64,000 nt of DNA from Candidatus Puniceispirillum sp. (GTDB taxonomy: Bacteria > Pseudomonadota > Alphaproteobacteria > Puniceispirillales > Puniceispirillaceae), in NCBI GenBank assembly GCA_028382965.1, contig JAOEUK010000001.1, forward strand, positions 1 to 64,000, in the 5' to 3' direction. Below, in pieces: positions 3,430 through 43,138 of the stretch. The first letter of the stretch is position 1; the number at the start of each line of letters is the position of its first letter. The position numbers and the translations under genes were made by a program. The notes beneath the pieces were generated by a model. It was not told where the DNA came from. It did no database searches and saw only the letters and a list, made by a program, of their open reading frames with translations.

Positions 3430-3439
3430 TTGGGACAAA

Positions 3440-6909: not shown

Positions 6910-7043
6910 ATTGGTCTTTCGTTTACCTTGTTTGACTGCGTTGCATGATGCCCAGCCATGAGAATCAGCCAAGATATCTAACTCAATTCCACTCTGAGCA
7001 AAATACACTGTAACAGCTAGGTATGATAGTCGCATGCCATAAT

Positions 7044-7802: not shown

Positions 7803-7883
7803 CTTCTCTTTTTTTATTACCCTCAGGCCATCGTTACCTTCTAGCCGTTGTGTGACTGCGACATCGCAAAAAAATAGACTTCA

Positions 7884-8819
7884 TCAAGCAAGAAAGCCGC
7901 GGCCACCGGCACGGCTCAGTAATTCAGCCCCCAAGGCAGCCCCCAGCACTGCCGCTTGATCCGATGGCGCAGTCATCTGTTGGCGATGCGACTCACTTCC
8001 ATCAGGGCGGAGAATCATCCCATCAAGGGTCAAATTTCCAGTTCTGTCAAGAATCGCACTTGCCGCAATAGGCGTTTGGCAAGACCCATCAAGAAAGGCA
8101 AGGAGGGCGCGTTCCGCTGTCACTTCGGCCAGCGCCTTGAAACAAGTCAGGGCACCAACAAGCTTTTTGACCTCAAGGGCCCGCCTTGTTTTGGGTGCCC
8201 TAATTTGCACCGCAAGCGCACCTTGTGCCACCGCTGATGGCATAATTTCAGCATCAATTGGCGTGAAATCAACATCCACCCCCAAGCGTTTAATGCCAGC
8301 AACTGCTAAAATAATTGCATCATAATCACCCGTCGCCAGCAAACCCAATCTCCGGTTCAAATTCCCACGAATAAGATTTATCTGCAGGTCTGGTCGATAA
8401 TTTAATAGGATTGCCGCACGCCGCACCGATGCTGTGCCAATACGTGCCCCTTTTGGCAAGTTATCAAGGTTGCAATACCGCCCAACAAGCGCGTCACGCC
8501 GGTCTTCACGCGTCAAAACAGCACCAATTTCAGTACTGGGTGCAAAATGCGTTTCCATATCCTTCATCGAATGCACAGCCGCATCCGTTTTCCCCGCTAA
8601 AATGGACCGTTCAAGCTCTTTGATAAACAGTCCCTTACCACCCACCTCAATTAGGGGACGATCCAATATCTGGTCGCCTTTTGTAGTGATAGGCCGCACC
8701 TCTACCGCGGCTGGTTTTAGCGCAGAGCAAACCAATTCTGCCTGCGCCATCGCCAGTTGAGACGCACGGCTAGCCAACCTCATGGGTTCAGCATCAAAAA
8801 ACGAGACATCAAGTTTCAT
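7884..8819 (-). CDS. hemC: Porphobilinogen deaminase (hydroxymethylbilane synthase)
   Basis: 311 residues, full length. Visible are the N-terminal RLASRASQLAMAQAE, the IGTASVRRAAIL substrate-binding arginine motif, IRGNLNRRL, and the dipyrromethane cofactor cysteine in DGSCQTPIAA (about residue 246). It polymerises four porphobilinogen molecules to hydroxymethylbilane, the substrate of the next gene, hemD. First gene of the heme operon, divergent from tsaD. Confidence 0.95.
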   Translation of the reverse strand: MKLDVSFFDAEPMRLASRASQLAMAQAELVCSALKPAAVEVRPITTKGDQILDRPLIEVGGKGLFIKELERSILAGKTDAAVHSMKDMETHFAPSTEIGAVLTREDRRDALVGRYCNLDNLPKGARIGTASVRRAAILLNYRPDLQINLIRGNLNRRLGLLATGDYDAIILAVAGIKRLGVDVDFTPIDAEIMPSAVAQGALAVQIRAPKTRRALEVKKLVGALTCFKALAEVTAERALLAFLDGSCQTPIAASAILDRTGNLTLDGMILRPDGSESHRQQMTAPSDQAAVLGAALGAELLSRAGGRGFLA

Positions 8820-8973
8820 AACAAGCCATATCTAAAGAGCTAACACATAAATGCAAAGCCAAAAAATTCACTTTTTAAAAAAATGTCTGTCCTTAACAGA
8901 TTTGCCAACAAAGCTGGTATCTCTACCCGGCTTCGGATAAGGTAATTTTGTTTTATCTAGAGGAACTTCATTC

Positions 8974-10047
8974 ATGTTGCACCGCTCCGTTATTATGCTT
9001 GGCATTGAGAGCAGCTGTGACGAGACAGCGGCAGCGATTGTTACTGATGACAAGACGATTCTTGCCAATGAAATCGCTTCTCAGATCGGAATCCATGCCA
9101 AACATGGCGGCGTTGTTCCCGAAGTAGCAGCCCGTGCGCATCTTGAAGTTATTGATCAAGTGATTAGCGATGCGCTGGCCAAGGCCAAGCTAAAAATGTC
9201 AGATATTGACGGGGTTGCAGCAACAGCAGGGCCAGGGCTGATTGGCGGTGTTGCAATTGGCACTGTCATCGCCAAAGCTATCGCAGCGGCACGGCATATC
9301 CCCTATTACGCTGTCAATCACCTAGAAGGCCACGCCCTCAGCCCTCGCCTTGCCGATGATGTGCCGTTTCCTTATTTACTTCTTCTGGTCTCGGGTGGAC
9401 ATACGCAGTTGCTGGCAGTCGTTGGTCCCAGGCGCTATCATCGTTATGGCACAACAATGGATGATGCGGCGGGCGAGGCCTTTGATAAATGTGCCAAGGC
9501 AATGGGGCTTGGCTACCCAGGTGGCCCAGCGATTGAGGCTACTGCACTGTCGGGCGATTCCAAAGCCATAGCCCTGCCACGCCCGTTAAAAGGTAGTCCT
9601 GGATGCCATTTTTCCTTTTCCGGTTTGAAAACGGCATTGGCAAATAAACTTCACAATCTTGGAGGGCCAAATAAGGCCCCTTTAGCTGATCTGGCTGCAA
9701 GTCTGCAAGCCGCAATTTCCGATTGCCTTGTCGATCGCACCAAACAGGCGATGGCCCGGTTTCTCAGTGAATTTCCGCCCACAGCCAACCAACGGCCAGT
9801 GCTTGTGATTGCTGGCGGTGTTGCTGCTAATAAACATATATTTTCAACGTTTCAGCAGGTTACAAAAGACACTAATTTCAGACTATCTGTTCCCCCAGCC
9901 ATGCTATGCACCGACAATGCAGCTATGATTGCTTGGGCAGCTCTTGAAAGGCTCCAAGAACCGGACCTTCTTGATTTTGCTCCTCGACCGAGATGGCCAC
10001 TTGATCCAAATGCCAGCCCGCCACCAGGACGAGGAGTGCGCCAATGA
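8974..10047 (+). CDS. tsaD: tRNA N6-threonylcarbamoyladenosine transferase
   Basis: 357 residues of the Kae1/TsaD ASKHA fold. MLGIESSCDETAAAIV opens the protein. The metal-binding histidines sit in NHLEGHALSP, and glycine-rich nucleotide motifs LLLVSGGHTQL and IAGGVAANK follow. It transfers the threonylcarbamoyl group to A37 of ANN-decoding tRNAs with TsaB and TsaE. ATG 8974 has AGAGGA about 8 nt upstream; ATG 8995 is the alternative. It overlaps gpsA by 4 bp (ATGA). Confidence 0.95.
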   Translation: MLHRSVIMLGIESSCDETAAAIVTDDKTILANEIASQIGIHAKHGGVVPEVAARAHLEVIDQVISDALAKAKLKMSDIDGVAATAGPGLIGGVAIGTVIAKAIAAARHIPYYAVNHLEGHALSPRLADDVPFPYLLLLVSGGHTQLLAVVGPRRYHRYGTTMDDAAGEAFDKCAKAMGLGYPGGPAIEATALSGDSKAIALPRPLKGSPGCHFSFSGLKTALANKLHNLGGPNKAPLADLAASLQAAISDCLVDRTKQAMARFLSEFPPTANQRPVLVIAGGVAANKHIFSTFQQVTKDTNFRLSVPPAMLCTDNAAMIAWAALERLQEPDLLDFAPRPRWPLDPNASPPPGRGVRQ

Positions 10048-11051
10048 ACCGTATTGTTGTCATAGGGGCTGGAAGCTGGGGTGCAGCCATTGCCTCAGCC
10101 CTAATGCGTGCCACCCATAAGACCAGCAATCCCCAAAAAATTATTGTTTTAGCTCGCCGTCAAGAAAGCGTTGACTCACTTGCCTTGGGGCACTGTTTAC
10201 ATCTTCCCGATACAACGCTAGCCATGCCCATTGCAGCCACCACTGATCCAGCCTGTATCGACGATGCCGATTTAGTTTTTGTTGCGGTACCTGTTGTGGC
10301 TAATGAAGCAAGTTTTCTGATGATTCGCGACCGGCAAAAAGATCGACATACTGATCGGAAACCAGCTACAATCGTATTATGCGCAAAAGGCATTGGCAAG
10401 GCCGCAGATGGCCGCGCTATGCTGCTTACCGAACTTGCAGCAGATCTTTTGCCCAGCCAACCGCTTGCGGTTTTTTCTGGGCCTAGTTTTGCTGATGAAG
10501 TTTTTGCTGGATTACCCGCTGCATTGGTAACAGCTAGTCTTGATTTAAGCGTAGTAAATGAAATTCAGAATGCGTTTGACGGCAGTAACCTTCGCTTATA
10601 CAGCAATGATGACCCGGTTGGCGTTGCGCTTGCAGGCGCGATGAAAAATGTAATTGCCATTGCCGCAGGTTGCGCTGTTGGAGCTGGATTTGGTGATAAT
10701 GCCAAGGCAGCTATCCTGACACGCGGGCTTGCTGAAATTGCGCGCTTTGCAACATTGATGGAAGCAAAACCTGATACAATTTTTGGCCTTGCTGGAGTTG
10801 GTGATCTTGCACTAACCTGTGCTGGACCACATTCGCGCAATATGGCATTTGGTATAGCGCTTGGCCGCGGGGAAGCACCACCAGCCAAACTTGCTGAGGG
10901 CAGCCAAACCGTCTCGCAATTGGCCGGTCTGGCAAAATCAAAAAATATTGATTTGCCCATCACAAATGCCGTGAATAAACTGGTTAACCATAATTGGGAT
11001 TTACACGAGGTTGTTGCAAGCCTGCTTGCCCGGCGAGCCGGTGCAGAATGA
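10044..11051 (+). CDS. gpsA: Glycerol-3-phosphate dehydrogenase [NAD(P)+]
   Basis: 335 residues. The N-terminal Rossmann motif is VIGAGSWGAAIA. The C-terminal domain includes GAMKNVIAIAAGCAVG with the catalytic Lys and the substrate loop GLAGVGDLALTCAGPHSRN. It reduces dihydroxyacetone phosphate to sn-glycerol 3-phosphate for phospholipid synthesis. Translationally coupled to tsaD by an ATGA overlap. Confidence 0.95.
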   Translation: MNRIVVIGAGSWGAAIASALMRATHKTSNPQKIIVLARRQESVDSLALGHCLHLPDTTLAMPIAATTDPACIDDADLVFVAVPVVANEASFLMIRDRQKDRHTDRKPATIVLCAKGIGKAADGRAMLLTELAADLLPSQPLAVFSGPSFADEVFAGLPAALVTASLDLSVVNEIQNAFDGSNLRLYSNDDPVGVALAGAMKNVIAIAAGCAVGAGFGDNAKAAILTRGLAEIARFATLMEAKPDTIFGLAGVGDLALTCAGPHSRNMAFGIALGRGEAPPAKLAEGSQTVSQLAGLAKSKNIDLPITNAVNKLVNHNWDLHEVVASLLARRAGAE

Positions 11052-11355
11052 AACAACCTCCTAACACCTAAAAATAGGGGCCTTTATGTAGTATTGGCTA
11101 GTGAAATCAAAGTTATAAACGTGGTAATGGAAAAATCATCTTGAGCGCAGCGTTACTGGCAATTTATTGGATAACGATTGCAATTATTAGGCGTCAAACA
11201 ATGCAAGAACCAAAAAAGGATGCCTTTTCTTTTTCTACTACTGAGTAATTTAAAAGATTGAACATGCAAAAGACACTAGTCCAGATAAAGAGTGATTAGC
11301 GGCTTTAAAATTGTATTGGTCCTCCAAGTAGGGTTATTTGTCCCACCAATTCCCC
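11052..11355. other. Intergenic stretch between gpsA and the glycosyl-transfer operon
   Basis: Both flanking units point into this gap, so it must hold two transcription ends. No strong terminator is obvious. A small possible membrane ORF (11141-11248) is listed separately. Confidence 0.4.
11141..11248 (+). CDS. Possible small membrane protein, 35 residues
   Basis: A TTG-initiated frame encodes a hydrophobic stretch (SAALLAIYWITIAII) followed by basic RRQ and a polar tail, the pattern of a single-pass small membrane protein. There is no ATG in frame and no clear RBS, and I recognise no family. It may be chance; it is included because it fills an otherwise empty gap. Confidence 0.25.
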   Translation: MSAALLAIYWITIAIIRRQTMQEPKKDAFSFSTTE

Positions 11356-11724
11356 TCAAGCACTCAATTTACGGGACTTGTGAATCAAGAACAGATTGCG
11401 CAAATAAATAAACAGACCCAGCCCCTGCCCACAAATAATTACTGGATCTTGCCGCCAAATAGCATAAAATAATAGTATCGCGCCTCCGCCAATAGAAAAA
11501 TACCAAAAAGCTATTGGGATTACTGACCGACCCTGCCCTTCCGAAGTTAGCCATTGTACGATGAAGCGCATGGCAAATAATCCCTGTCCAGCAAAGCCAA
11601 TGGTTACCATAATTTGCTCTGGGTGGGTGATAAGACTAGCAGGTAGAAACGGAAAGATAGTTAACAAACCAATGGCAAAAGCACTAACGATACTTTCAAT
11701 TGATTCAGATAGAAATGCGATCAT
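11356..11724 (-). CDS. Lipid A biosynthesis N-terminal domain (LABN) membrane protein
   Basis: 122 residues with three hydrophobic segments and the LABN signature (IGFAGQGLFAMRFIVQWLTSE ... FWYFSIGGG). This domain is found at the N-terminus of some LpxB proteins and as a free small protein next to GT2/GT39 enzymes. It overlaps the GT2 gene by 4 bp. Context suggests a part in moving or presenting lipid-linked sugars for lipid A or envelope modification. Confidence 0.85.
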   Translation of the reverse strand: MIAFLSESIESIVSAFAIGLLTIFPFLPASLITHPEQIMVTIGFAGQGLFAMRFIVQWLTSEGQGRSVIPIAFWYFSIGGGAILLFYAIWRQDPVIICGQGLGLFIYLRNLFLIHKSRKLSA

Positions 11725-12614
11725 TGTGCTTTTCCTCTCGCCGCTTTTAAGGCGCTTTTGCTAGAAACTTTTTTACGATTTCCACGGGCACTTCCGGTGG
11801 TAGATTTTGACTTCACTACCTCACTAACACCCGCTTGTTCTGGTGCCCGGCGCAACAGCCAAATAACACCCAAGACGTCAGAAACTCCAACAAGCAGACG
11901 ATCTAGAATACGGTATTTTGAGACCCCCACTATTCGTGGACGATGTGCTACAGGCACGCCAAGAACCACCCCACCATGGCGGCGAACTAAGCTTGGCATA
12001 AAACGGTGCATATGATTAAAAAATGGTAATTGCATAAATAGCGCCCGTGGCAATATCTTAATACCACAACCAGAATCTGGATGGGTGTCAGCAAGGAGGC
12101 TGACCCGCACCCATTTTGCCACACTCGAGGCTAAAAGGCGCACTGCACTATCATTACGGCTTTGACGAATACCTGCTGCCATGACAAGTGCTCCATCTTT
12201 GCTAGCATCAATAATAACGGCTTCCAGTGCAGGGAAATCTGCTGGTACATTCTGGCCATCGCCATCCAGCACACCTATTAAAGTCCCCTTTGCCTGAAGC
12301 AGGCCCGATCGAATTGCAGCACTTTGTCCAGCGCGTTTAAAATGTCGAAGGACTCTTAATTGAGGTATGTCAGCAAGTGCCGCCACCAGCTCTTCTGCAG
12401 TGGCATCATCACTGGCATCATCAACATAGATGATTTCAAATCTCCGATTTGAAAATGTGGCGCATATCTCGTCAATAAGCGGACGAATATTTCCCGCTTC
12501 ATTCATTACTGGTACCAGAATTGAAATATCAAGCGATTGGATGGCGCAGTTCTTGCCATTAGCCGGTCTGGCTATCGGAGAGTTAACGGTTTCTGACGCT
12601 GCGCTAGATGCCAT
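11721..12614 (-). CDS. Family 2 polyprenyl-phosphate glycosyltransferase
   Basis: GT-A fold enzyme of the dolichyl-phosphate mannose synthase/ArnC type. The core DISILVPVMNEAGNI is followed by DDASDDAT and DGDGQNVPADF (DxD-like metal site), with no large C-terminal membrane domain. A Lys/Ser-rich basic tail of about 30 residues ends the protein. Lying between LABN and GT39 genes, it probably makes the polyprenyl-phosphate sugar donor used by the GT39 protein. Start is either 12614 (ATG) or 12629. Confidence 0.85.
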   Translation of the reverse strand: MASSAASETVNSPIARPANGKNCAIQSLDISILVPVMNEAGNIRPLIDEICATFSNRRFEIIYVDDASDDATAEELVAALADIPQLRVLRHFKRAGQSAAIRSGLLQAKGTLIGVLDGDGQNVPADFPALEAVIIDASKDGALVMAAGIRQSRNDSAVRLLASSVAKWVRVSLLADTHPDSGCGIKILPRALFMQLPFFNHMHRFMPSLVRRHGGVVLGVPVAHRPRIVGVSKYRILDRLLVGVSDVLGVIWLLRRAPEQAGVSEVVKSKSTTGSARGNRKKVSSKSALKAARGKAQ

Positions 12615-12653
12615 TGTTAAGATGATCACATTGATTGTTTACGGTTCAAGCTT

Positions 12654-14327
12654 TTACTCTTTGCTAGCATTCGCGTCAAACATCTCAGAGCGATACAGTA
12701 GAATAATTACGTTTTGGCCTTTTGATATGTTAATTCCTGACAATTGAATCGGTGGAGCAAGGCGAAGGCCCAATTGACCAGCAGCCTGCAAAAACACCGC
12801 TTGCTGCCTTTGCTCGATGATGGCAAGTCCGCCCGGCGCTTCAATCAAGAATAGCGCCGCTTCGGTGGCGCTGAGAAGTAGCAGATCGCGGCTAAGCAGA
12901 AATACCAGTGATGGCTCTTGAAAGCCCGTTGTCGAAATTGCAACTGGTTTGGCAGTTAATGTGGAAATTTTTTCTGCTATAGCCGTTGACACGTGAATGC
13001 GAGACAACGCGGGCAACACACCGGCAAATGCAACTAGATGAAAAAGCATTGCAGCCCCAATCATTTTGAAAAAGGGACGCCATAAAGCCTGTCTTATCCA
13101 CTGGTGACCATACCAAGCAGCAAGGCTAGCCATTACAAGAGCCAACAGAGCAAACAGCACCGCTTGGCGGCTTGTTTCTCCACCAAACTGAACCGCACCC
13201 CAAAGAAAAATCGATGCCAACAAAATCCCAATGCCAACCCCCCCATAGCGGAGCGCAACTCCCAAAAAATAAAACCATCTAATGCGAGCCGTTTTTGGAT
13301 CTGACAATACATCAACTCCACCAATTAATAGAAGGATAATTGCTGGCAATAGGGGTAAGGGGTAATGCGGCAATTTTGTCGGGATAAGTTCAATTAACAG
13401 CCAGAATGGCAAGATCCAAGCCAACAGAAAAAATGTTTTAGTGCAGTTTATCAAAGTTCGAGTGTGGGCAAAGGCCCAAATCAAGAGTGGGCTTGCAGGC
13501 CAGATTAGCATACACAGAAGGATCGCATAAGCACCTGGTGGAGCACCGTGAGATTCCTGACCCGTCTTTAATTTGGCCAGTAAATCGCCCTTTACTGCTG
13601 TTGCCAAAAACTCGCCATTGGTTTCCAATGTTACCAAAACTGTCCAAGGTAGACATAACAAAAAAAGCAATGTTAGGCCGCGGCGGAAACTTAAGATATT
13701 AAGCCATGAAGCCTGCCGGTGCCGAAGACATAACGCGACCAGTGTTAGTCCCGCAAGAACTGGTAAAACAGGCCCTTTGACTAGGATCCCTGCAGCCATG
13801 CAACCCCAGAACCAAAACCAGTTATGACGTGGTGGCTCCAATTCTAACTGCCACGCCATATAAAAGCGCATCAAAGCCCATTGCTGCCCAAGGGCCAAAG
13901 CCATCAATAGGGTATCAGTTTTAGCTAGATGTGCTTCACCAAGGACCAAAAAACAGCTTGAAAATAATGCTGCGGCCCCAAACGCCGCGCGTGAGTCATA
14001 AAAATGCAAAGCCATATGGTAAAGAGTAAAAATAGTGGCCAGTAAAGCCACTAAGTTAACAAATCTATAGGATGAAATTTTATTAGCACCCAGAAAACTG
14101 GCAAACGTGGATTGCAGCCAATAGATGCCAGCCGGCTTTTTAGCTCGCAGCTCATCTTGAAACTGAACTGTGACATAATCGCCAGATTGCAGCATTTGCT
14201 TGCTAGCTTGTGCAAAGCGTGACTCGTCACGATCCATCGGCGGAACAGAGTGGTGGCCAATAAGAACTACGGCCGAGACCACCACCATTAGAGCATATAA
14301 AGCCGAACGTGAATAAAAGAAGAGCAA
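12654..14327 (-). CDS. GT39 (ArnT-like) lipid-linked glycosyltransferase
   Basis: About 557 residues with 10-12 membrane segments. The periplasmic first loop holds the catalytic acidic motif MDRDESRFAQAS, and QSGDYVTVQF follows, as in ArnT and related PMT-type transferases. It transfers a sugar from a polyprenyl carrier to lipid A or another envelope acceptor. The frame extends to TTG 14381, but TTG 14327 has AGAGG 8 nt upstream and starts at the first membrane helix; either is possible. First gene of the operon with GT2 and LABN. The sugar is not determinable here. Confidence 0.8.
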   Translation of the reverse strand: MLFFYSRSALYALMVVVSAVVLIGHHSVPPMDRDESRFAQASKQMLQSGDYVTVQFQDELRAKKPAGIYWLQSTFASFLGANKISSYRFVNLVALLATIFTLYHMALHFYDSRAAFGAAALFSSCFLVLGEAHLAKTDTLLMALALGQQWALMRFYMAWQLELEPPRHNWFWFWGCMAAGILVKGPVLPVLAGLTLVALCLRHRQASWLNILSFRRGLTLLFLLCLPWTVLVTLETNGEFLATAVKGDLLAKLKTGQESHGAPPGAYAILLCMLIWPASPLLIWAFAHTRTLINCTKTFFLLAWILPFWLLIELIPTKLPHYPLPLLPAIILLLIGGVDVLSDPKTARIRWFYFLGVALRYGGVGIGILLASIFLWGAVQFGGETSRQAVLFALLALVMASLAAWYGHQWIRQALWRPFFKMIGAAMLFHLVAFAGVLPALSRIHVSTAIAEKISTLTAKPVAISTTGFQEPSLVFLLSRDLLLLSATEAALFLIEAPGGLAIIEQRQQAVFLQAAGQLGLRLAPPIQLSGINISKGQNVIILLYRSEMFDANASKE

Positions 14328-14682
14328 AATAGAATATCCTCTTATGCCGCGGGTGCAAAACGACTGCGCAAGGCATAACAAGTTTTTCTAGGGTTAGGCA
14401 ATGCGGATCACATAAATATCAAATGGGTGACCTATAATTGCAAGCTTCAAGCCACTAAAAAACAGATAATGCTCTAGGCTGTCATTCTCGTCTATCATAC
14501 TGTTTTGAATATTTTTGCATCTTTTCGTTTTGATTAATTACATCAATAAAATTGAATCGCTGCAAAACACTAGGTAGAACTTTGCTAATAGGTTAAAATA
14601 CGCTTGGTAAATGCTATTATGCACATAATAACGTGTTAGAATCATAACTGACTTAAAAAAACACGAAAAGGGTTTTCGCGTA
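14328..14682. other. Divergent intergenic region of GT39 and pepA
   Basis: AT-rich, with no ORF supported. It must contain promoters for both directions. A short perfect dyad at 14615-14630 is listed separately. Confidence 0.4.
14615..14630. promoter_or_regulatory. 16-bp dyad upstream of pepA, possible operator
   Basis: TATTATG-CA-CATAATA is a perfect inverted repeat with 7-bp arms and a 2-bp centre, 53 nt before the pepA start. This spacing fits a dimeric repressor or activator site overlapping a promoter. No cognate regulator is encoded nearby. Confidence 0.35.
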
Positions 14683-16068
14683 ATGGTTGAAAATTTTGGC
14701 ATTCTTGATGGTGGATTGCATGGCACTAAAATTCATTTTATGTTGGCTGATGAATTTAACAACTGGCTAAAAAAAGCTAGCAGTGCTCAACAAGCATGGG
14801 TCATCGCACAAGGATTTATAGCCAAGCCAGGCAATGCAATATGCTTTGCCGCCAGCGGAGGGCAAATTGATTTTGCTGTCGGTATTTATGGAGATCACGC
14901 CGTATGGAATGGCGCCTCAATTGCAGCCAATTTGCCCACTGGTGAATGGCGGTTCAGTGGCACAAAAAGTGAGCTTCCGGCACATATCTCTGAATCGCTG
15001 ACCCTTGGGTGGGGACTTGCACAGTACCGCTTTCACTCATATCGTTCGATACCGCCAGCCCCCATCAATTGTCTGGTGATTCCAAAAGGAGTTCACACGC
15101 CCCGGCTTCTTGGCCAGATACGCGGTATCTACCTATGCCGTGATCTGATTAATCATCCACCAAACCATATGACACCAGCAACCCTTGAAGCAACAATGGT
15201 ATCACTAGCAAAAACCTACAAGGCTAAGCTAAAAACCCATAGCAGCAAAGCTTTGGAAAGCGGCTTTCCTGCTATTCATACCGTTGGACGTGCGGCCGAA
15301 ATTGCACCACGCCTAATGGACCTTCGCTGGGGCAAAACCGGTCCAAAAATCACTCTTATAGGCAAGGGTATTACTTTTGATTCGGGTGGGCTTGACTTAA
15401 AGCCATCAAAAGCAATGGAAATAATGAAAAAGGATATGGGTGGAGCGGCAACTGTTCTTGGCCTTGCCGTAGCCCTGATGGCGAGTAAAATTGATATCCA
15501 ACTTCGCGTCATTGTTGCCGCTGCAGAAAATGCTGTTTCAGAACGATCAATGCGGCCACTCGATATTATTGATACACGAGCAGGTGTCAAGGTTGAGGTT
15601 GGCAACACGGATGCTGAAGGCCGATTGGTTTTAGCAGATGCAATTACCCATGCGCTGGAAGATAATCCAGATTTCATGATTGATTTTGCCACGCTGACAG
15701 GGGCTGCACGAGTTGCCTTGGGCACCGAGTTACCAGCCCTATTCTGCAATGATGATCAAACAGCTGCTGCCATTCTTGATGCCGCCACAGTGCAGCAAGA
15801 CCCGCTATGGCGACTACCCCTGTTTGATGATTATGAACGTCATTTAGATGCTGGTTATGCTGCCTTGTCCAGTACTGGGCTTTCCGGCTATGGTGGGGCC
15901 ATTACCGCAGCACTGTTTTTGCGCCGGTTTGCCGGCAAGGATAGTAACTGGGCGCATATTGATGTTATGGCATGGAATGTGGCATCACGCCCGGGACGGC
16001 CAAAGGGTGGTGAGGCAATGGGACTTCGAGCGTTGTACAGCTTTATTGAATCCTTTAAGAAACCCTAA
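14683..16068 (+). CDS. pepA: Leucyl aminopeptidase (M17)
   Basis: 461 residues. The C-terminal catalytic domain carries the two-zinc site: GKGITFDSGGLDLKPS, the family signature NTDAEGRLVLADA, and the aspartates between them. It removes N-terminal residues from peptides in the cytoplasm. The N-terminal domain is short and divergent compared with E. coli PepA, so DNA-binding functions of that protein should not be assumed. The stop codon overlaps the convergent downstream gene by 4 bp. Confidence 0.9.
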   Translation: MVENFGILDGGLHGTKIHFMLADEFNNWLKKASSAQQAWVIAQGFIAKPGNAICFAASGGQIDFAVGIYGDHAVWNGASIAANLPTGEWRFSGTKSELPAHISESLTLGWGLAQYRFHSYRSIPPAPINCLVIPKGVHTPRLLGQIRGIYLCRDLINHPPNHMTPATLEATMVSLAKTYKAKLKTHSSKALESGFPAIHTVGRAAEIAPRLMDLRWGKTGPKITLIGKGITFDSGGLDLKPSKAMEIMKKDMGGAATVLGLAVALMASKIDIQLRVIVAAAENAVSERSMRPLDIIDTRAGVKVEVGNTDAEGRLVLADAITHALEDNPDFMIDFATLTGAARVALGTELPALFCNDDQTAAAILDAATVQQDPLWRLPLFDDYERHLDAGYAALSSTGLSGYGGAITAALFLRRFAGKDSNWAHIDVMAWNVASRPGRPKGGEAMGLRALYSFIESFKKP

Positions 16069-35831: not shown

Positions 35832-35908
35832 GCGCTCGTAGCTCAGCTGGATAGAGCACTAGACTACGAATCTAGGGGTCGGGAGTTCGAATCTCTCCGA
35901 GCGCACCA
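35832..35908 (+). tRNA. tRNA-Arg (anticodon ACG)
   Basis: 77 nt with encoded CCA. The acceptor gcgctcg pairs with cgagcgc, the D arm is gctcagctggatagagc, the anticodon arm ctaga-ctACGaa-tctag, and the T arm gggag-ttcgaat-ctctc. The ACG anticodon would be edited to ICG by TadA to read CGU/CGC/CGA. Confidence 0.96.
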
Positions 35909-35982
35909 TTTCTCAATAAGATATTATCTCTTTTTGCAATCAATTATGGAATTGATTTTATTGCCAGATAGAAGTGAACATT

Positions 35983-37029
35983 ATGCGTGAATTTACCGTT
36001 ACCACAACAATTTTTGTACTTACTTTTCTAATTTACATATACCCCCTAAATATCCTCACCCATCTTCTTCTTAAAACCAAAATCGTTGAGTATGTAGCCA
36101 TCATCCCCACAGCCATAATTGCTTTAGCTGTTTTTGTTTATTTTAGAACACATGCAAAATCACCCCTATTGCGCGGATTTATCTACTATGGAATGGGCAT
36201 TGGCTTCATAGGTTTCTGCGTGTTCAATATAGGGTTGCTCACTTCACTGATCTTTCCAAAATTAGCCCTTGAAATTGGTTTTATTTGCCTTTTCATCTCT
36301 TCAATTACCTGCGTGAAAAGCATTTCAAATGGACGTAGCATTCACCTTAAGAAGATATGTCTAACATCCCAAAAAATAAATCAGGACATTAACTTAATAT
36401 TCATAAGTGACGTTCACTTAGGATCTAACTCAAAGCAACATTTCGAAAAAATTTGTAATAAAATAGACGGACTAAAGTACGATTGTCTACTAATTGGTGG
36501 TGATCTATTCGATTCAAGCGCCTTTGACGCTGGGGATTTAAACCCTATAAAAGCTATTCAAAAACCCGTACTCTTCGTGACTGGAAACCATGAATATTAC
36601 GTCAAAGATCATCAAGAAAAAATTGCCCGTCTAGCCAATTATAATATAAGGATTTTAGACAACCAGTCCTTGCAACTAGGCGCACTGAATATTATTGGGA
36701 TCAGTGATAATCAAGCACCAAAAATACAATCGGAAATTTCACAAAGCCTTATCAGTCAAGACAAATTCAATTTACTGTTGGTGCATCAACCATCTATGTG
36801 GAAAAGTGCGCCGAAAAACACAGATTTAATGCTCTCCGGGCACACACATAACGGTCAGATATTTCCATTTAACCTTTTGGTAAGGCTCCAGTTTAAAACT
36901 GTTTATGGAATTTACAAACGGCTGAACTCCAGTTTGTATGTCTCATCCGGGAGCGGCACATGGGGGCCAAGAATGAGGCTTGGTACAAAGAATGAAATTA
37001 TTCAAATTTTGATTTCACCCAAAACATAG
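35983..37029 (+). CDS. Membrane-anchored calcineurin-like metallophosphoesterase
   Basis: About 348 residues. Four N-terminal membrane helices (about 1-120) are followed by a YkuE/YaeI-like phosphoesterase domain with every metal motif: ISDVHLGS, GGDLFDS, GNHEYY and SGHTHNGQ. It hydrolyses a phosphoester at the membrane face; lipid-linked substrates such as UDP-diacylglucosamine are possible but unproven. ATG 35983 has GAAGTG upstream; GTG 35974 is also possible. It lies between two tRNA-Arg genes and its base composition is AT-richer than the housekeeping genes. Confidence 0.85.
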   Translation: MREFTVTTTIFVLTFLIYIYPLNILTHLLLKTKIVEYVAIIPTAIIALAVFVYFRTHAKSPLLRGFIYYGMGIGFIGFCVFNIGLLTSLIFPKLALEIGFICLFISSITCVKSISNGRSIHLKKICLTSQKINQDINLIFISDVHLGSNSKQHFEKICNKIDGLKYDCLLIGGDLFDSSAFDAGDLNPIKAIQKPVLFVTGNHEYYVKDHQEKIARLANYNIRILDNQSLQLGALNIIGISDNQAPKIQSEISQSLISQDKFNLLLVHQPSMWKSAPKNTDLMLSGHTHNGQIFPFNLLVRLQFKTVYGIYKRLNSSLYVSSGSGTWGPRMRLGTKNEIIQILISPKT

Positions 37030-37350
37030 CTGAAAGAAAAAACATGGCCTTTTAGATTAAAAGAGATTTGCTAAAGTACGTCTTGAGATTTTCATCTGGA
37101 TATGGCGCCAAGTTACGAATCTAAATATTTTAATAAATATTTTCCAAAATGCGGTGGTTTTTTATTAAAAAATATTATTTTTTGCAACTGTTAAGCGCTC
37201 AGAAAAAGTAGGCAATATTCAAAATATCTAATATACTTCAGAACCTTATTAATACATTTAGAACAGCATCCCAAATGCGAATGATTATTCTGGTTTGACA
37301 TAAGCACCTCAAGAGCTTCATTCTTTAATACAAAATGGGGGAGGTTGGGC
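37030..37350. other. AT-rich intergenic region upstream of the CBS gene
   Basis: Low-GC stretch with no supported ORF. TTGACA occurs near 37297 but has no well-placed -10 box. Confidence 0.35.
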
Positions 37351-37773
37351 ATGACACCATTTATTGCTAAACTTATTGAAAGAGGCTGTATTACAGTAGG
37401 TCCTAATAGTCAGCTTCAAACTGTAACTAATTTGCTCGTGAAATGGCAGATTGGAACTGTTGTAATTATAGACGCCAAAGGCATTGTATTGGGCATTCTG
37501 TCAGAACGTGACATTATAAAACATATTGCACAAGAGCAGTCACTCTTGGAAACAACCGCGGAAGAGCTTATGGCAACAAAAGTTGTAACCGTTGGGGAGG
37601 ATATAAACTCATCAGAACTAATGCATTTAATGACAATAAACAAAATTCGGCATGTTCCAATTATAAAAAATAATAAACTGGTTGGGATTGTGTCAATGGG
37701 TGATGTTGTAAAAAGAATGTTGGAAAAATATGAGCAAGAAACTGAGTTAATTAGAGGGTTTATTAATTCCTAA
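37351..37773 (+). CDS. CBS-pair domain protein
   Basis: 140 residues consisting of two CBS domains in tandem: GTVVIIDAKGIVLGILSERD in the first and RHVPIIKNNKLVGIVSMGDV in the second. Such stand-alone pairs bind AMP, ATP, NADH or SAM-type ligands and sense energy state. ATG 37351 has GGGGGAGG 6 nt upstream, a strong RBS. The partner protein is not evident from context. Confidence 0.88.
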   Translation: MTPFIAKLIERGCITVGPNSQLQTVTNLLVKWQIGTVVIIDAKGIVLGILSERDIIKHIAQEQSLLETTAEELMATKVVTVGEDINSSELMHLMTINKIRHVPIIKNNKLVGIVSMGDVVKRMLEKYEQETELIRGFINS

Positions 37774-37943
37774 GTTCATTTTCTGCCCGTACGATGATAG
37801 CTAATTGCGGGAGGTCTTTCAGCCTGGAATCTGAAAAGTTCCAATTGTAAGCTTCAGTGGTTAATCGTTTTTAGAAAACGTCATCTGATATTATAGTTAG
37901 GTAGTCAAATGCATATTGTAGTAGCGTTTTGTAGAAAGTATTT

Positions 37944-38020
37944 GCGCCCGTAGCTCAGCTGGATAGAGCACTAGACTTCGAATCTAGGGGCCGGGAGTTC
38001 GAATCTTCCCGGGCGCGCCA
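37944..38020 (+). tRNA. tRNA-Arg (anticodon TCG)
   Basis: 77 nt with encoded CCA. The acceptor gcgcccg pairs with cgggcgc; the anticodon loop is ctTCGaa. It differs from the ACG tRNA-Arg at 35832 in only about 7 of 77 positions, including one anticodon base, implying duplication. Its 3' end is repeated at 40621-40642. Confidence 0.96.
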
Positions 38021-38026
38021 TTTCCT
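38005..38026 (+). repeat. Putative attachment site (left copy, in tRNA-Arg 3' end)
   Basis: The 22 nt covering the tRNA T-arm/acceptor end and 6 following bases match 40621-40642 at 20 of 22 positions. Position in a tRNA 3' end is the commonest target for tyrosine integrases. The pair bounds about 2.6 kb. Confidence 0.55.
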
Positions 38027-38127
38027 TAGAGATGCTCTTGGATAACTCATTGATACTCAAGCATACATTTGCAATGTAGCTAATATGGGTAGGTCAAATG
38101 GTATACCAAAACAGTGCCGCTTATCTG

Positions 38128-38182
38128 TCAATAGTTGAATAAAGTTTTGTACAAACCAAAACGTAGTTTATTCAATGGTTGA
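38128..38182. promoter_or_regulatory. Nested inverted repeat upstream of the TPR-methyltransferase gene
   Basis: Arms tcaa/ttga (38128/38179), ttgaataaa/tttattcaa (38135-38143/38167-38175) and gttttg/caaaac (38144-38149/38157-38162) stack into a 19-pair imperfect hairpin, ending 30 nt before the start codon. Could be an operator dyad, a cruciform or an mRNA leader hairpin. Confidence 0.5.
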
Positions 38183-38212
38183 TAAGAAAGCCTTTTCTGT
38201 TAATCATAAAAA

Positions 38213-40357
38213 ATGATGTCGTGTTTATCCGTTGATCAAAAATTGAAAAAAGCCCAATCTTTATCTCGTAAAGGGAAAATAGCTGAGGCCATCGAACAAC
38301 TTCAACAAATTTTAAGTGATTTTCCCAAAAATAACAGAGCTAAAGCCGCCATTGCTAAATTAAATGGGCGTGACGACTCAAAACTGACAGCATTGCCATC
38401 AGATATCACTAAAAGAATTACTTCCATGTACACTAACGGACAATTCATAAAAGCTGCTGAATATGCTGAACAGCTGATAAAAAAGTTTCCGTCCTCTCTT
38501 TTATTATGGAATTTAAGAAGTAGTTCTGAGTTTCGTTTGAATCGATTGGAAAAAGCAGAAGCAGGCTTTAGATTCGTAAATCAGTTAAACCCAAATTATC
38601 CGGACGGATACAATAGTTTAGGGAATGTTTTACGAAGCCTCAGTAGATTTGATGAAGCCATTGAAAATTATAAGAAAACTATTTCATTAAGTCCAAACCA
38701 CTTCCACGCTCTTTATAATCTAGGTTTAACATTTCACAGTATTGGGGACTTTGAGAATGCAATTGAAAATTATCAAAAAACAATAGAGCTAAAACCAGAT
38801 TTTAAAGAGGCTTATTATCGTATTGGGCTTGCCTTCAAAAATGCAAAATTCAAAAACTATAAAGAAGAATTACAACACACGATGGTGAGCTTGCTAGAGA
38901 AAGAAACATTAATTCACCCATCTTCTATCGCTCATGCCGCAGTAACACTCCTAAAACAGAACCCATTAATTCAAAGTACTCTAAAACAAACACCAACTTC
39001 CGAGTGTTTAGAATCAATTATAATAAGTATTAAAACGCTCTCCAAACAACCTCTTTTAATGAAGTTGATGAGCTGTTGTCCAATACCTGACCTTGAATTT
39101 GAGGCAGCTTTGATAAGTATCAGGCGTTCTATTCTGTTCAACATTAATGACCTGTCCAATAATCAAGCCATCGTTCATTTCCAAAATGTTTTAGCCCACC
39201 AGTGTTTTATCAATGAGTATCTATTCATTGAAAAAGAGGAAGAGACTGAGAATATAAAGATACTTGAACGCTCAATTAAAAAAAGTTTTCAAACTGGCTG
39301 TCAGCCATCATCAAATGAAATACTTTGCATAGCTAGTTATAGGCCACTTAATTCCTATGAAATGATTAATCAAACAACTTTCCAAACTGAAAGTCAGACT
39401 GTTATCAAATTACAGGTACTCGATCACGAGGTGGAAAACAGACTTCAGTCCGAAATTCCTACTCTGAAGGAGTTGAGTAACAAAATTTCTTTAAAAGTGC
39501 AGGGCCAATATGAAAAAAATCCTTACCCTAGGTGGGTCATGTTAGGTCTGCCCCTTAAACCAAGTACAATTAAAGAAGTTGTTTCTCAAATAGCGTTAAA
39601 TTTGGACAACAAAGAGATTGAGTCTGTTGTTAAACCTAAAGTTCTTATTGCTGGGTGTGGCACAGGTCAACACTCCATTGGTACAGCATCGCGATTTAAA
39701 AATGCTGATGTCCTTGCAATTGACATAAGCCGGCGAAGTTTAGCGTATGCGAAACGAAAGACGGTGGAGCTTGGCATCGACAATATTAGGTACATGCAGG
39801 CTGATATTTTGAATTTGGAGAAATCTGAAAATAAATTTCATATAATTGAAAGCTCAGGGGTACTCCATCACATGGAAGATCCAATTCTGGGTTTGACTAT
39901 CCTCTCCAGTTGCCTAAATAGGCGAGGCCTCATGAAGATTGGGCTTTACAGCGAGGAAGCAAGGAAGCATATCGTTAAAATTCGTGAAGAAATCAGAGTC
40001 TCGGGTTTAGAGCCAGGAGATAGGCAAATGAAATTATTTAGGGAGCAACTGAAGACTTCAAAAAACCAACACCACAAAATAATTCGGAATACATCTGATT
40101 TTTTTAGCATGAGCGATTTTCGTGATCTTGTATTTCACATTCAAGAGCATCGCTTCACAATACCACAAATAAAACGTCATTTATCCCAGCTTGGTTTATC
40201 GTTTTGTGGATTTGAAGGCACTGAGGTAATATCTAAGTTTAGATCAGTATACCCCTCAAGTGTTGATCTATATGATCTAGATAAATGGCATCGTTTTGAG
40301 CTAAGCAACCCTTGGACTTTTATGGGTATGTATCAGTTTTGGTGTCAAAAAGCGTAA
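38213..40357 (+). CDS. TPR protein fused to a class I SAM methyltransferase
   Basis: 714 residues. The N-terminus holds TPR units (about 5-190) with clear copies such as YNSLGNVLRSLSRFDEAIEN and YNLGLTFHSIGDFENAIEN. A middle region of about 250 residues has no recognised domain. The C-terminus has a Rossmann methyltransferase: motif I VLIAGCGTGQHSIG (about 477), acidic post-I residue in VLAIDISRRSLAYAK, and ESSGVLHHMEDP. Related TPR-methyltransferases occur in marine bacteria with unknown substrates; protein or glycan methylation are possibilities. It is AT-richer than neighbouring housekeeping genes and is bracketed by att-like repeats, so it looks acquired. Confidence 0.85.
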   Translation: MMSCLSVDQKLKKAQSLSRKGKIAEAIEQLQQILSDFPKNNRAKAAIAKLNGRDDSKLTALPSDITKRITSMYTNGQFIKAAEYAEQLIKKFPSSLLLWNLRSSSEFRLNRLEKAEAGFRFVNQLNPNYPDGYNSLGNVLRSLSRFDEAIENYKKTISLSPNHFHALYNLGLTFHSIGDFENAIENYQKTIELKPDFKEAYYRIGLAFKNAKFKNYKEELQHTMVSLLEKETLIHPSSIAHAAVTLLKQNPLIQSTLKQTPTSECLESIIISIKTLSKQPLLMKLMSCCPIPDLEFEAALISIRRSILFNINDLSNNQAIVHFQNVLAHQCFINEYLFIEKEEETENIKILERSIKKSFQTGCQPSSNEILCIASYRPLNSYEMINQTTFQTESQTVIKLQVLDHEVENRLQSEIPTLKELSNKISLKVQGQYEKNPYPRWVMLGLPLKPSTIKEVVSQIALNLDNKEIESVVKPKVLIAGCGTGQHSIGTASRFKNADVLAIDISRRSLAYAKRKTVELGIDNIRYMQADILNLEKSENKFHIIESSGVLHHMEDPILGLTILSSCLNRRGLMKIGLYSEEARKHIVKIREEIRVSGLEPGDRQMKLFREQLKTSKNQHHKIIRNTSDFFSMSDFRDLVFHIQEHRFTIPQIKRHLSQLGLSFCGFEGTEVISKFRSVYPSSVDLYDLDKWHRFELSNPWTFMGMYQFWCQKA

Positions 40358-40455
40358 CCACAGATTTTTGATCTATGCTTTGATATTTTCTCCGTCTGAA
40401 AAATGCTTTCCAATTGTGCCCCAGACACACCAGAGACTCTCTAGAGACCTATAGC

Positions 40456-40528
40456 AGTTCCTTAAGTACCCCTGAGTATCAGGGTGCTCAGAGAGTTCTT
40501 TAAGAGTTGTGTACATACTCGTGTACAT
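40456..40528 (+). repeat. Two pairs of short direct repeats beside the att-like site
   Basis: AGTTCYTTAAG at 40456-40466 and 40494-40504 (38 nt apart), and GTGTACAT at 40509-40516 and 40521-40528 (12 nt apart, about one helical turn). Such spaced direct repeats are usual integrase or excisionase arm sites. Confidence 0.45.
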
Positions 40529-40620
40529 TATGTGCGTGTTGACAGTGACTCACAGTATCCTAAAGTGAATGTATTGCTTATTTAGCAGTGAGATTGGTGC
40601 AGTATTGAAGCGTAGAACTG

Positions 40621-40642
40621 CTCCCCGGGGGCGCCATTTCCT
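40621..40642 (+). repeat. Putative attachment site (right copy, tRNA-Arg 3' end remnant)
   Basis: 22 nt matching the end of tRNA-Arg(TCG) plus its flank at 20/22, in the same orientation. The rest of a tRNA is not present upstream (no T-arm ttcgaat), so it is a fragment, as left by integration at a tRNA gene. Confidence 0.55.
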
Positions 40643-40771
40643 CAAAAAGGGTTGCCAATTTTTATGATCAATGTCTAAGTTCTCCTGTGAAGAAAATCTA
40701 TAGCCCTAATGGCTTAGCTATTAACTTTTTGATGTTGGACAATTTAGGCAGCATAAATATGGTGTTGAATC

Positions 40772-40969
40772 ATGAGTCAAATAATCCGAAATTCGTTGTT
40801 AGCGATCAATTACGGCATTGCGGTTGTGACCTGCTTAATTTTGATAATGTCGCAAAAATTATCAGTCACAGATAAGGCAATATTTGGGTTTAGTGTAATT
40901 GGTGTTGGCATGGTTCTTCGCAAAATTATAAGTTGGATATTACCAGAAAATGAACCACATACTAAATAA
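40772..40969 (+). CDS. Small membrane protein of unknown function
   Basis: 65 residues with two hydrophobic segments (about 8-27 and 36-54) separated by SQKLSVTDK, and a polar C-terminus. Start ATG 40772 has only a weak RBS. No family recognised. It lies just outside the att-like site. Confidence 0.5.
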   Translation: MSQIIRNSLLAINYGIAVVTCLILIMSQKLSVTDKAIFGFSVIGVGMVLRKIISWILPENEPHTK

Positions 40970-41351
40970 ATGCTGTTACTGTAATCATTAGGTTTTATGG
41001 CAGGACTTACAGCTTTTAATTGTTTTATTATAAAGTCATCGCTATAGCTGATGAGGCAGTTTCAACCCAAGATTTGGCTGCTATTTCACTTAAAGTTTAA
41101 ATAACACGTAAGCGATTATTCTTGTAACCCTCATAATTGCGGCAGAATTAGTATTCATGCTGAGTATTGAGACATCATTCAATTTTTAATAAGGTGGTTT
41201 CATTTATGATCAGGGTCAGATGTCTTGATTAATTCATAATCCATGGATGGCAATTGCTAATTGATTCAAACAAAAAATAAAGTCAAAGAGATCGTCTCAA
41301 AATTAATTGATCAATACAAGCCACAATAACTGAGCAGGAAAGTTCAAATGA
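40970..41351. other. Intergenic stretch without a supported gene
   Basis: AT-rich, many stops in all frames, no repeats or terminator noted. It ends with AGGAA, which serves the next gene. Confidence 0.4.
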
Positions 41352-41798
41352 ATGACTGAGGCCAGTGCGTTTCTTGGCATTTTCCTATCTGCATTCCTTG
41401 CTGCCACACTATTGCCAGCACAGTCTGAAATTGGCCTGGGATATTTGATCCTTTACACAGACCATTCATTGGGTCTTTTGATTGTATTCGCTAGTCTTGG
41501 GAACACCCTTGGCGCAGTCGTAAATTGGCTCATAGGATGTGGGCTTGCTAAATCTGTCACAAAGTTAGAAAAAATTCAGGTTTCACCGAGCTACCAAAAA
41601 ATCTCAGGCTTGTATCAAAAATTTGGCCAATGGACTCTTTTATTAAGCTGGCTACCTATTGTTGGCGATCCCATTACTGTAATTGCAGGTATATTTAAAA
41701 TACCTTTTAAAAGATTTTTACTATTTGTGGCGTTAGCAAAAACATCGCGATATCTAGTAGTTGCCTTTCTTGCAGAAAATTTTTCTTTTGTCTCATAG
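41352..41798 (+). CDS. YqaA-family (DedA/SNARE-associated) membrane protein
   Basis: 148 residues with four hydrophobic segments. Signature features are FLSAFLAATLLPAQSE at the N-terminus, NTLGAVVNWLIGCGL, and WLPIVGDPITVIAGIFK with the conserved Pro/Gly-Asp. Members of this superfamily are linked to membrane lipid or envelope homeostasis. AGGAA is 11 nt upstream. Confidence 0.85.
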   Translation: MTEASAFLGIFLSAFLAATLLPAQSEIGLGYLILYTDHSLGLLIVFASLGNTLGAVVNWLIGCGLAKSVTKLEKIQVSPSYQKISGLYQKFGQWTLLLSWLPIVGDPITVIAGIFKIPFKRFLLFVALAKTSRYLVVAFLAENFSFVS

Positions 41799-41897
41799 CC
41801 CAAGGTTGTTAACATAATGAAGAATAATTTTTAACAATATAAAAGAGTTCATCTTCCTAAAAATTTGATCCAGTAAGTCTATAAAAAGGAATTTAGC

Positions 41898-42527
41898 ATG
41901 ATTGACTTTTACACTTGGACAACGCCCAATGGCCGCAAAGTATCTATCCTTCTTGAAGAACTCGGCCTTGATTATGAAGTTCACGCGATTAATATCAATC
42001 AAGGGGAACAAAAAAAACCTGAGTTCCTTAAAATTAGCCCCAATAATAAAATTCCCGCAATAGTTGAACGAGACACAGGACTATCTTTGATGGAGTCAGG
42101 TGCCATTCTCGTTTATCTAGCAGAAAAATATGGAAAATTTTTACCAACAGGTCAAGCTGGGCGTGCTCGGGTAATGGAATGGTTAATGTGGCAGATGGGC
42201 GGCTTTGGACCAATGCTTGGCCAAACCCATCATTTTTTACATTTTAATTCAGGACAATCAAAATATGCTGAAATCCGTTTTAGCGAAGAAACAAAAAGGC
42301 TTTACAGCATTTTAAACAACCGTTTGGAAGGGCGCGACTATATCTGTGATAACTATACAATTGCTGATATGTCATGTTGGCCATGGGTTGCACGCTATGA
42401 ATGGCAAAGGATCGACTTGGCTGATTATCCAAACGTGCGAACTTGGTACAAACGGTTATTAGACCGTAGCGCTGTTCAAAACGGTTATCATATACCGAGA
42501 AATATGGGGGAAATACCGCAAGGTTAA
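41898..42527 (+). CDS. Nu-class glutathione S-transferase (YfcG/YghU-like)
   Basis: 209 residues. The N-terminal thioredoxin fold starts MIDFYTWTTPNGRKVSILLE, with Thr9 and Asn11 at the positions that contact glutathione in YfcG. The NNKIPAI cis-Pro motif and ESGAILVYLAEKYG follow; the C-terminal helical domain includes YTIADMSCWPW. This class acts mainly as a disulfide-bond oxidoreductase. AAAAGGA lies 8-9 nt upstream. Confidence 0.92.
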   Translation: MIDFYTWTTPNGRKVSILLEELGLDYEVHAININQGEQKKPEFLKISPNNKIPAIVERDTGLSLMESGAILVYLAEKYGKFLPTGQAGRARVMEWLMWQMGGFGPMLGQTHHFLHFNSGQSKYAEIRFSEETKRLYSILNNRLEGRDYICDNYTIADMSCWPWVARYEWQRIDLADYPNVRTWYKRLLDRSAVQNGYHIPRNMGEIPQG

Positions 42528-42577
42528 TGCACCTTATATTTTTGCTGCTGTATTTAATTCTGGCATAAAAATTGCGA

Positions 42578-42705
42578 GGTTCTCATCAAGGTCAAACCAC
42601 TAGTTAGATTAGAACTTCCGTATAGGGGTTTTAAAGCTAATTAGGATGAGTCTGGCCTCCGATGAGAACCCTCATTAGCCTTAACGACTAATGAGGGTTT
42701 TTTTT
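42578..42705 (+). ncRNA. Candidate structured RNA ending in an intrinsic terminator
   Basis: A long rod is predicted: outer stem 42578-42587/42661-42670 (10 bp, ggttctcatc with gatgagaacc), an inner stem 42600-42607/42637-42644 (8 bp with one G-U), and an apical G-U-rich hairpin. The 3' arm of the outer stem shares its last four bases with the terminator stem that follows, so the two folds compete. No plus-strand gene begins until 43139, so this may be a small RNA or the GST mRNA 3' end. No known RNA family recognised. Confidence 0.45.
42667..42705 (+). terminator. Intrinsic terminator after the GST gene
   Basis: Perfect 12-bp stem aaccctcattag/ctaatgagggtt (42667-42678/42688-42699) with a 9-nt loop and an eight-T run from 42698. 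A textbook Rho-independent terminator. Confidence 0.9.
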
Positions 42706-42731
42706 AATCTTTATTCCATAAAATTCTATTT

Positions 42732-42896
42732 TTACTTGCCTGAAGGGCCTAAAAACTTATCTTTTGCAAGACGCTTATCATAGTTTTTTTTCATGTAGCT
42801 AAAAATATGGAATGCCAACATCGTCATCAAAAAGTATGAGGCAAATTGATCAACAAGATGTTCTGTCAACGGCTGTTCAGAGTTTTCATCATGCAT
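42732..42896 (-). CDS. Small single-pass membrane protein
   Basis: 54 residues from ATG 42896, which has AGGA 7 nt upstream (the frame continues to 42926). An acidic N-terminus (MHDENSEQPL), one hydrophobic segment (FASYFLMTMLAFHIFSYM) and a basic C-terminus. Family not recognised. It stands alone on the minus strand. Confidence 0.55.
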   Translation of the reverse strand: MHDENSEQPLTEHLVDQFASYFLMTMLAFHIFSYMKKNYDKRLAKDKFLGPSGK

Positions 42897-43138
42897 ATTT
42901 AATCCTGTCAAACTCTTGTAAAACATTACAAATCCAATCTACCTGAACTGCGATATTCATTACCATAAAAACCTTCGCTCTAAATGGCATAAATCCAGCT
43001 TTTTATCACAGCGGCACACGGTCAGCAAAAATGTAGCTTGCAAGTCGTTAACAGACAGCCCAATATTTTGATGTTACGATTTTTTTTTATATTTTTGCCA
43101 ACTAATTTTAATTTTAGCCGCGCAACAGGAAACGATAG

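Follow-up and report, generated by a model that had tools for sequence, protein, structure and literature searches.

A very likely remnant of a small integrative element at a tRNA-Arg gene of Candidatus Puniceispirillum, with relatives that carry an inverted internal attP

Surface seawater commonly harbours bacteria of the SAR116 group. Several systems are known in which recombination sites occur in inverted orientation. In the yeast 2-micron plasmid (Flp/FRT) and in shufflons (Rci), a tyrosine recombinase gene is accompanied by inverted copies of its own sites, an arrangement that permits inversion. In integrons and at the attP of CTX-phi, cargo comes in small units, from one to a few genes, and inverted sites can pair on one strand. 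Recombinase-in-trio (RIT) elements combine tyrosine recombinases with inverted terminal repeats. As far as the available portions of the published accounts go, three systems can be compared in their described features: the tRNA-integrated islands of the Islander database, which were mapped via repeats of the tRNA 3′ end (PMC4383910); the tycheposons of Prochlorococcus, elements of 4-200 kb that are described second-hand (PMC10872708); and the RIT elements, with three recombinases each (PMC8138268).

The locus compared with these systems here lies in a stretch of 64,000 nucleotides from Candidatus Puniceispirillum sp. (GCA_028382965.1, contig JAOEUK010000001.1, positions 1 to 64,000), hereafter the window. 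Its interval 38005-40642 is very probably what remains of a small integrative element, presumably a circular one that a DUF6538-type tyrosine integrase inserted at the 3′ end of a tRNA-Arg gene. Among the matches listed in a literature search that left most subscription papers and all bioRxiv preprints outside, no title or abstract opening described the layout reported below for the relatives of this element, and DUF6538 occurred in 0 papers of the literature searched.

The tRNA-Arg locus and its relatives within the genus

The following features were identified at the locus, all on the forward strand, with tRNA genes as called by ARAGORN:

35832..35908, +, tRNA-Arg(ACG), a neighbouring gene
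37944..38020, +, tRNA-Arg(TCG), intact, at the left end of the element
38005..38026, +, attL core: the last 16 bases of tRNA-Arg(TCG) and 6 more
38027..38097, +, left arm (L), upstream of the integrase start, with similarity to contigs C13 and C26 of the same genome (G000) and to genus genome G010
38098..38142, +, integrase remnant of 14 codons between a start and a stop, the rest missing
38213..40357, +, cargo gene of 714 aa: N-terminal TPR repeats and a class I SAM-dependent methyltransferase domain
40421..40620, +, right arm (R), 195/200 identical to its counterpart in the element of G010
40621..40642, +, attR core, a displaced tRNA 3′-end fragment with 20/22 identity to the attL core

A direct repeat of the tRNA 3′ end thus bounds the interval, with an intact tRNA-Arg(TCG) at one end. 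The two 22-mers lie in the same orientation and differ at 2 positions. With up to 3 mismatches allowed, the window contains 2 matches, compared with 0 in 100 shuffles, and these are the only 2 sites in the whole genome (2,377,654 bases). A third, weaker copy (16/22) at 35893-35914 is the 3′ end of tRNA-Arg(ACG), a gene that is 70/77 identical to tRNA-Arg(TCG) and adjoins xgprt-rnpA-yidD, as the tRNA-Arg(ACG) of genus relatives does.

Sequence similarity at both ends points to an integrated element. On the left, positions 38023-38128 are 87% identical over 106 nt to G000:C13:16162-16267, and the last 94 nt of this stretch are 88% identical to G000:C26:4049-4142; both matching regions are integrase 5′ ends, the ORF on C26 being truncated (249 aa). 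Additionally, the first 26 nt of the left arm are 25/26 identical to the left arm of G010. About the first ten codons of the integrase remnant can be aligned to relatives, which have 382-397 aa when intact, and the DNA alignment stops at 38128. Because the integrase gene is reduced to about ten codons, the interval is classed as a remnant. On the right, the G010 match is placed in the same way with respect to an att core. The arm is also 95% identical to an R arm in G005 over the 116 nt available, and it carries the direct repeat GTGTACAT at 40509-40516 and 40521-40528.

Comparison with the original prediction, which had proposed the remnant of an element integrated at tRNA-Arg, is favourable in most respects. 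The repeat of the tRNA-Arg(TCG) 3′ end is as predicted and is a unique pair genome-wide, and the proposed element is supported by both arms together with the integrase remnant. The integrase was described as absent; there is indeed no functional gene, but its start survives just inside the left repeat. The recommended search for integrase fragments thus succeeded next to attL, and at the opposite end of the interval a right arm was found to match. The family of relatives, with its inverted internal attachment site, lay beyond what the original prediction could show. The TPR-methyltransferase is, as expected, the sole long ORF between the two repeats, but the AT-richness ascribed to it does not set the interval apart, since the GC content of 36.8% does not fall below the values on its left (35909-37943, 35.3%) and on its right (40643-43100, 36.6%). 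Similarly, a tetranucleotide deviation at least equal to that of the interval is reached in 6 of 308 sliding windows, all of which start at 36.4-37.6 kb; the interval is deviant, but no more so than its surroundings. Composition was therefore dropped as evidence for the element, the whole of 35.9-43.1 kb being about equally AT-rich. As a separate observation, the AT-richness runs past both repeats, and more acquired DNA may thus adjoin the interval.

None of eight proteins of the window is a phage structural or packaging protein. The cargo TPR-methyltransferase has a paralogue in its own genome, on contig G000:C13, and is absent from most genomes of the genus: a close relative (E up to 1e-30) was found in 2 of 16, namely its own and G006. 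In nine readable genus relatives, the 22-mer of tRNA-Arg(ACG) beside xgprt matches that of the window at 19-21 of 22 positions, and in several of them this tRNA is followed by an element left arm or by another integrase. In G006, tRNA-Arg(ACG) is followed by an apparent transporter operon with no element left arm visible by eye, and none of the 9 right-arm matches listed for this genome is on that contig. G013 and G014 have additional DNA with integrase sequence separating the tRNA from this operon: in G014 the integrase is of another type, and in G013 only a fragment of one is present and the operon is reversed. No relative has the exact two flanks of the window joined, and gene order to the right of the site varies between genomes. 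An empty site of the kind that the original prediction led one to look for thus appears at the tRNA of G006, but not at the exact junction of the window. Neither of the outcomes that would have spoken against the original prediction was obtained: the interval is not conserved in relatives, nor is the 22-mer common in the genome.

Distribution of the integrase and competing readings of the locus

Of 265 pattern matches obtained in genome contigs with an alignment of three genus integrases, 188 were confirmed as relatives, and the best 80 of these were analysed. By manual count, 41 of these 80 are titled SAR116 or Puniceispirillum; the remainder belong to other Alphaproteobacteria, in some cases to Gammaproteobacteria, or are unclassified. 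Some of the 80 loci depend on one another: several come from a single genome, and L120 is part of the contig of L097, as the L120 stretch (JAOEVD010000041.1, Candidatus Puniceispirillum sp. AH-135-E14) is contained without any difference in contig C36 of G005, a genome of the same genus as the window. The integrase of G004 consists of DUF6538 and Phage_integrase domains (Pfam), and open-frame integrases stand beside att cores in G004 (L059) and G005 (L097, L098). The tRNA targets among the family loci include Leu, Thr, Arg, Gly, Phe, Asn and SeC. The genome of the window retains one integrase whose frame is open throughout, on contig C5; it points toward tRNA-Arg(CCG), and its two left arms share the att core only.

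A tyrosine integrase next to a tRNA gene is a typical trait of prophages and satellites, and the integrases of this family match PHROG integrase families. The locus could on these grounds be a classical phage- or satellite-type island that has lost its other genes. This is improbable, however, in view of where the relatives occur. Of 36 pattern matches in viral contigs, 0 were confirmed, and a viral origin was rejected on this result; relatives are similarly rare in phage records (3 of 50,697, none covering 80%) and plasmid records (14 of 72,556, 1 covering 80%). The cargo of the family also speaks against such an island. Among 17 cargo proteins compared with Pfam, 8 had matches above the cut-off, 4 had weak matches only and 5 had none, and the scan found no structural or packaging gene. 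The 8 belong to enzyme or binding families: two methyltransferases, a fatty-acid hydroxylase, SOUL, GNAT, an amidohydrolase, an alpha/beta hydrolase and a guanylate cyclase.

An even less probable reading is that the second 22-mer is no att site at all, being the leftover of a decayed duplicate of tRNA-Arg, and that the TPR-methyltransferase arrived by another route. A duplication of tRNA-Arg did occur at the locus, as the similarity of the ACG and TCG genes attests. However, the copy at 40621 spans solely the last 16 tRNA bases and 6 beyond, and the sequence that precedes it is not that of a tRNA but a 200-bp right arm known beside att cores in other genomes. The integrase 5′ end that sits inside the left copy likewise argues against a decayed tRNA and for the remnant of an integrated element.

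The inverted internal attP of complete relatives

The region upstream of the integrase recurs in inverted orientation downstream of it at most of the testable loci. In the 6 kb examined, an inverted copy was found within about 5 kb in 30 of 44 testable loci, defined by at least 120 nt upstream and at least 1500 nt downstream (36 of the 80 loci fall short), while the remaining 14 had none; controls gave 3/96 and 4/172, and direct copies occurred in 0 of 44. When 80 nt upstream suffices, 53 of 77 loci have the inverted copy. The likely artefact L128 is kept in the 30 of 44 and in the orientation counts given below; when it is left out, the proportion is 29 of 43. Single-cell whole-genome amplification makes inverted chimeras. 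That the inverted copies are assembly or amplification artefacts of this kind, and the family architecture unreal, is the least credible reading: many loci do come from single-cell genomes, and L128 (302 bp including the tRNA, 99%) resembles a chimera, but the inverted copy is present in 16 of 21 testable loci judged non-single-cell by title, in the single-contig genome G004 and in loci whose titles name strains and carry no single-cell label (BAL199 L121, IMCC1909 L166 and HIMB30 L172), and in most of the non-single-cell loci the inverted stretch starts at the tRNA 3′ end.

Full copies have the order tRNA-att-L-int-L′-att′-R′-cargo-R-att. A complete second attP is thus present, inverted, inside the full relatives, so that the integrase module is flanked by inverted left arms and the cargo module by inverted right arms. 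In several elements an extra cargo gene, convergent with int, stands between it and L′. The five copies whose two ends were both found (L172, L166, L137 and two in G004) measure 3.7-8.4 kb, compared with 2.6 kb for the copy in the window. The single-contig genome G004 has two tandem complete elements after tRNA-Thr (L211):

L211, copy 1: int 2667-3833; R′ 3888-4018; cargo; R 6819-6950
L211, copy 2: int 7170-8171; R′ 8845-8979; cargo; R 12583-12718

The inverted repeats of G004 are 100% identical over 197 nt for R and 95% identical over 97 nt for L. A weak match of the R-arm profile described below (20.3 bits) covers tRNA-Thr and the start of the first integrase in L211, and was taken as chance.

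Alignment identifies the conserved right arm as the outer flank of the inverted att. The alignment holds 33 of 37 internal R flanks, the window and four others, with L149, L162, L181 and L187 omitted; L127, L128, L150, L170 and loci with less than 120 nt of flank had been left out of the set of internal flanks. At E up to 0.01, the profile of these 38 sequences, window included, has matches in 14 of 16 genus genomes, with at least 19 in the genome of the window and at least 15 in G004, counts that are lower bounds, as an initial pass scored at most 150 candidates per genome. Across loci, where 47 chosen sources were searched, R arms outside the training set were found, for example, at the terminal positions L130:10148, L133:14129 and L166:13437, and also in L127. 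Internal and terminal R arms are 99.4% identical over 172 bases in L137, 100% over 233 in L172 and 92% over 113 in G005; in L166 they are 94% identical over 294 bases that are located away from att. Among 57 loci that have an inverted copy, 6 showed a direct att copy further on, 4 with an adjacent R arm (L137, L166, L172 and G005) and 2 without (L133 and L178); the available sequence beyond the inverted att is shorter than 700 nt in 23 of 53 loci.

Two simpler accounts of the inverted copies were set aside. Plain terminal inverted repeats of a transposon were rejected because the inverted att is flanked on its outside by the conserved R arm, and also because a direct attR has an R arm of its own (L137, L172 and G005). 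Inverted insertion caused by a palindromic att core (GCGCGC centre) was dropped, as inspection of a set of flanks by eye revealed no hybrid half-sites.

The integrase module has one prevailing orientation. For the 53 loci with an inverted copy, a filter placed the tRNA on the left in 33, on the right in 1 and on neither side in 19, although it missed tRNAs slightly further left (for instance, in L162, L181 and L187), and C5 is outside this count. The integrase reads away from the tRNA in 33 of 34 tRNA-anchored loci, and this single orientation weakens the idea of frequent switching of the integrase module. The integrases of L170 and L172 are 96.1% identical, and their modules have opposite orientations relative to tRNA-Phe.

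In common with this family, the window has a left and a right arm at att cores. The R-arm profile matches the window solely at 40505-40643, which is its best match in this genome (the window being one of the 38 training sequences); by this search, a second complete attP, inverted inside the element, is absent from the window. Because the second attP is missing, the window copy is regarded as a stripped relative by its ends and not as a full member of the family. We infer a deletion in this copy and do not observe it directly, because there is no recognisable R′ arm between the integrase remnant and the start of the cargo.

Proposed history and comparison with known systems

Integration by tyrosine integrases at tRNA 3′ ends is established for such elements and fits the window. 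Here, a DUF6538-type tyrosine integrase would have recombined the attP of a circular element with the 3′ end of a tRNA-Arg gene; as to which of the tRNA-Arg genes was the original target, we can only infer it. The incoming att sequence would have restored the tRNA on the left and displaced the old 3′ end to the right, as a fragment of 22 bp. The window copy may then have lost its integrase, except for about ten codons, and its internal inverted attP, the deletion and its place in this order being the presumed part of the scheme. Such losses would leave attL, the left arm, the TPR-methyltransferase cargo, the right arm and attR. Since it has neither integrase nor inverted attP, any movement of this copy would require an integrase acting in trans, and the intact integrase on C5 may be able to provide this.

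The inverted attP of the complete relatives may allow inversion with amplification, as in the 2-micron plasmid, may permit the cargo module to be exchanged, or may let both sites pair within one strand, as in CTX-phi. A bolder reading, which we consider possible but rather unlikely, takes the complete relatives as bacterial, tRNA-seated counterparts of the 2-micron/Flp system. The integrase would invert, amplify or exchange modules between the inverted attP sites, or would use the pair, folded in single-stranded form, as the substrate of integration; the element in the window would be one of many cargo units moved in trans, and alternating arrays of inverted att sites would form a cargo-shuffling system of SAR116. 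A family of small elements that combine a single integrase and one or a few cargo genes with inverted attP sites in pairs would offer SAR116 a concrete route for acquiring single metabolic genes; its right arm occurs in 14 of 16 genus genomes. The paired inverted sites also pose a mechanistic question, in which inversion, amplification, cassette exchange and single-strand entry are the candidate answers.

Unlike the 2-micron plasmid and shufflons, the elements described here sit integrated at bacterial tRNA genes, and they differ from integrons and CTX-phi in that their integrase is of the DUF6538 phage type. The comparisons that follow refer to the available portions of the sources cited. The copies of the family examined in detail carry one integrase beside tRNA genes and thus lack the three adjacent recombinases of RIT elements (PMC8138268). 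With tycheposons they have in common a seat at tRNA genes, a tyrosine recombinase, metabolic cargo and hosts that are streamlined aquatic bacteria, but the remnant in the window, at 2.6 kb and with no recombinase, falls outside elements of 4-200 kb that carry one, and the available part of the tycheposon description mentions no inverted internal attP (PMC10872708). Islands of the Islander type are alike in having a tyrosine integrase, a target at the tRNA 3′ end, a regenerated tRNA and a displaced fragment at the opposite end (PMC4383910). The present family differs from them in its size (3.7-8.4 kb in five copies), its one integrase, its one or few cargo genes and its inverted second attP.

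The paired tRNA-Arg genes and the segment between them

Two tRNA-Arg genes lie 2.1 kb apart in the window, separated by protein-coding genes:

35832-35908: tRNA-Arg(ACG)
35909-37943: intervening metallophosphoesterase and CBS-domain genes
37944-38020: tRNA-Arg(TCG)

Among ten genus relatives compared, tRNA-Arg(ACG) has the same sequence in eight, and the other two differ at 2 positions. Relative to this genus tRNA, the window tRNA-Arg(ACG) carries three differences, all within its last 15 bases, and tRNA-Arg(TCG) carries four, which include the anticodon and an apparent paired change in the acceptor stem. The pair represents a duplicated tRNA whose anticodon has shifted, and the duplication was possibly carried in by an element. 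When the segment was set against 14 further loci, a number of them cut off at the tRNA, the window metallophosphoesterase matched nothing in them; CBS-domain relatives (at 49-55%) are located elsewhere. The segment is perhaps a second acquired one.

A second integrase type and repeats in the R arms

At the same tRNA-Arg att core, genus genome G005 has a second type of tyrosine integrase, present at two loci (L097, 4100-5092; L098, 13864-14802) and lacking a DUF6538 match; the L098 copy is broken. Separately, inspection by eye of the R-arm alignment revealed a short direct repeat of the GTAGACAAA type in many R arms (the right arms). Also by eye, the two copies agree inside one element and vary from element to element. 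Such repeats are possible candidates for integrase arm sites.

Element debris in the same genome and cargo of a related element

Elsewhere in the window's own genome, decayed R-att-L junctions lie between single cargo genes at locus L063 (G000:C39:50000-68000; 7900-11500). Their core is a different one that resembles a tRNA 3' end, and there is no tRNA within the 18 kb examined. On another contig, a truncated stretch resembling a flagellin N-terminus, recognized by eye, adjoins element and integrase fragments (locus L004, G000:C13, about 6690-6843). In L137, a family locus with both ends seen, the cargo includes a 456-aa protein (14064-15434) that had no match in a Pfam scan and matches phrog_4756, a PHROG family of unknown function (5.8e-36).
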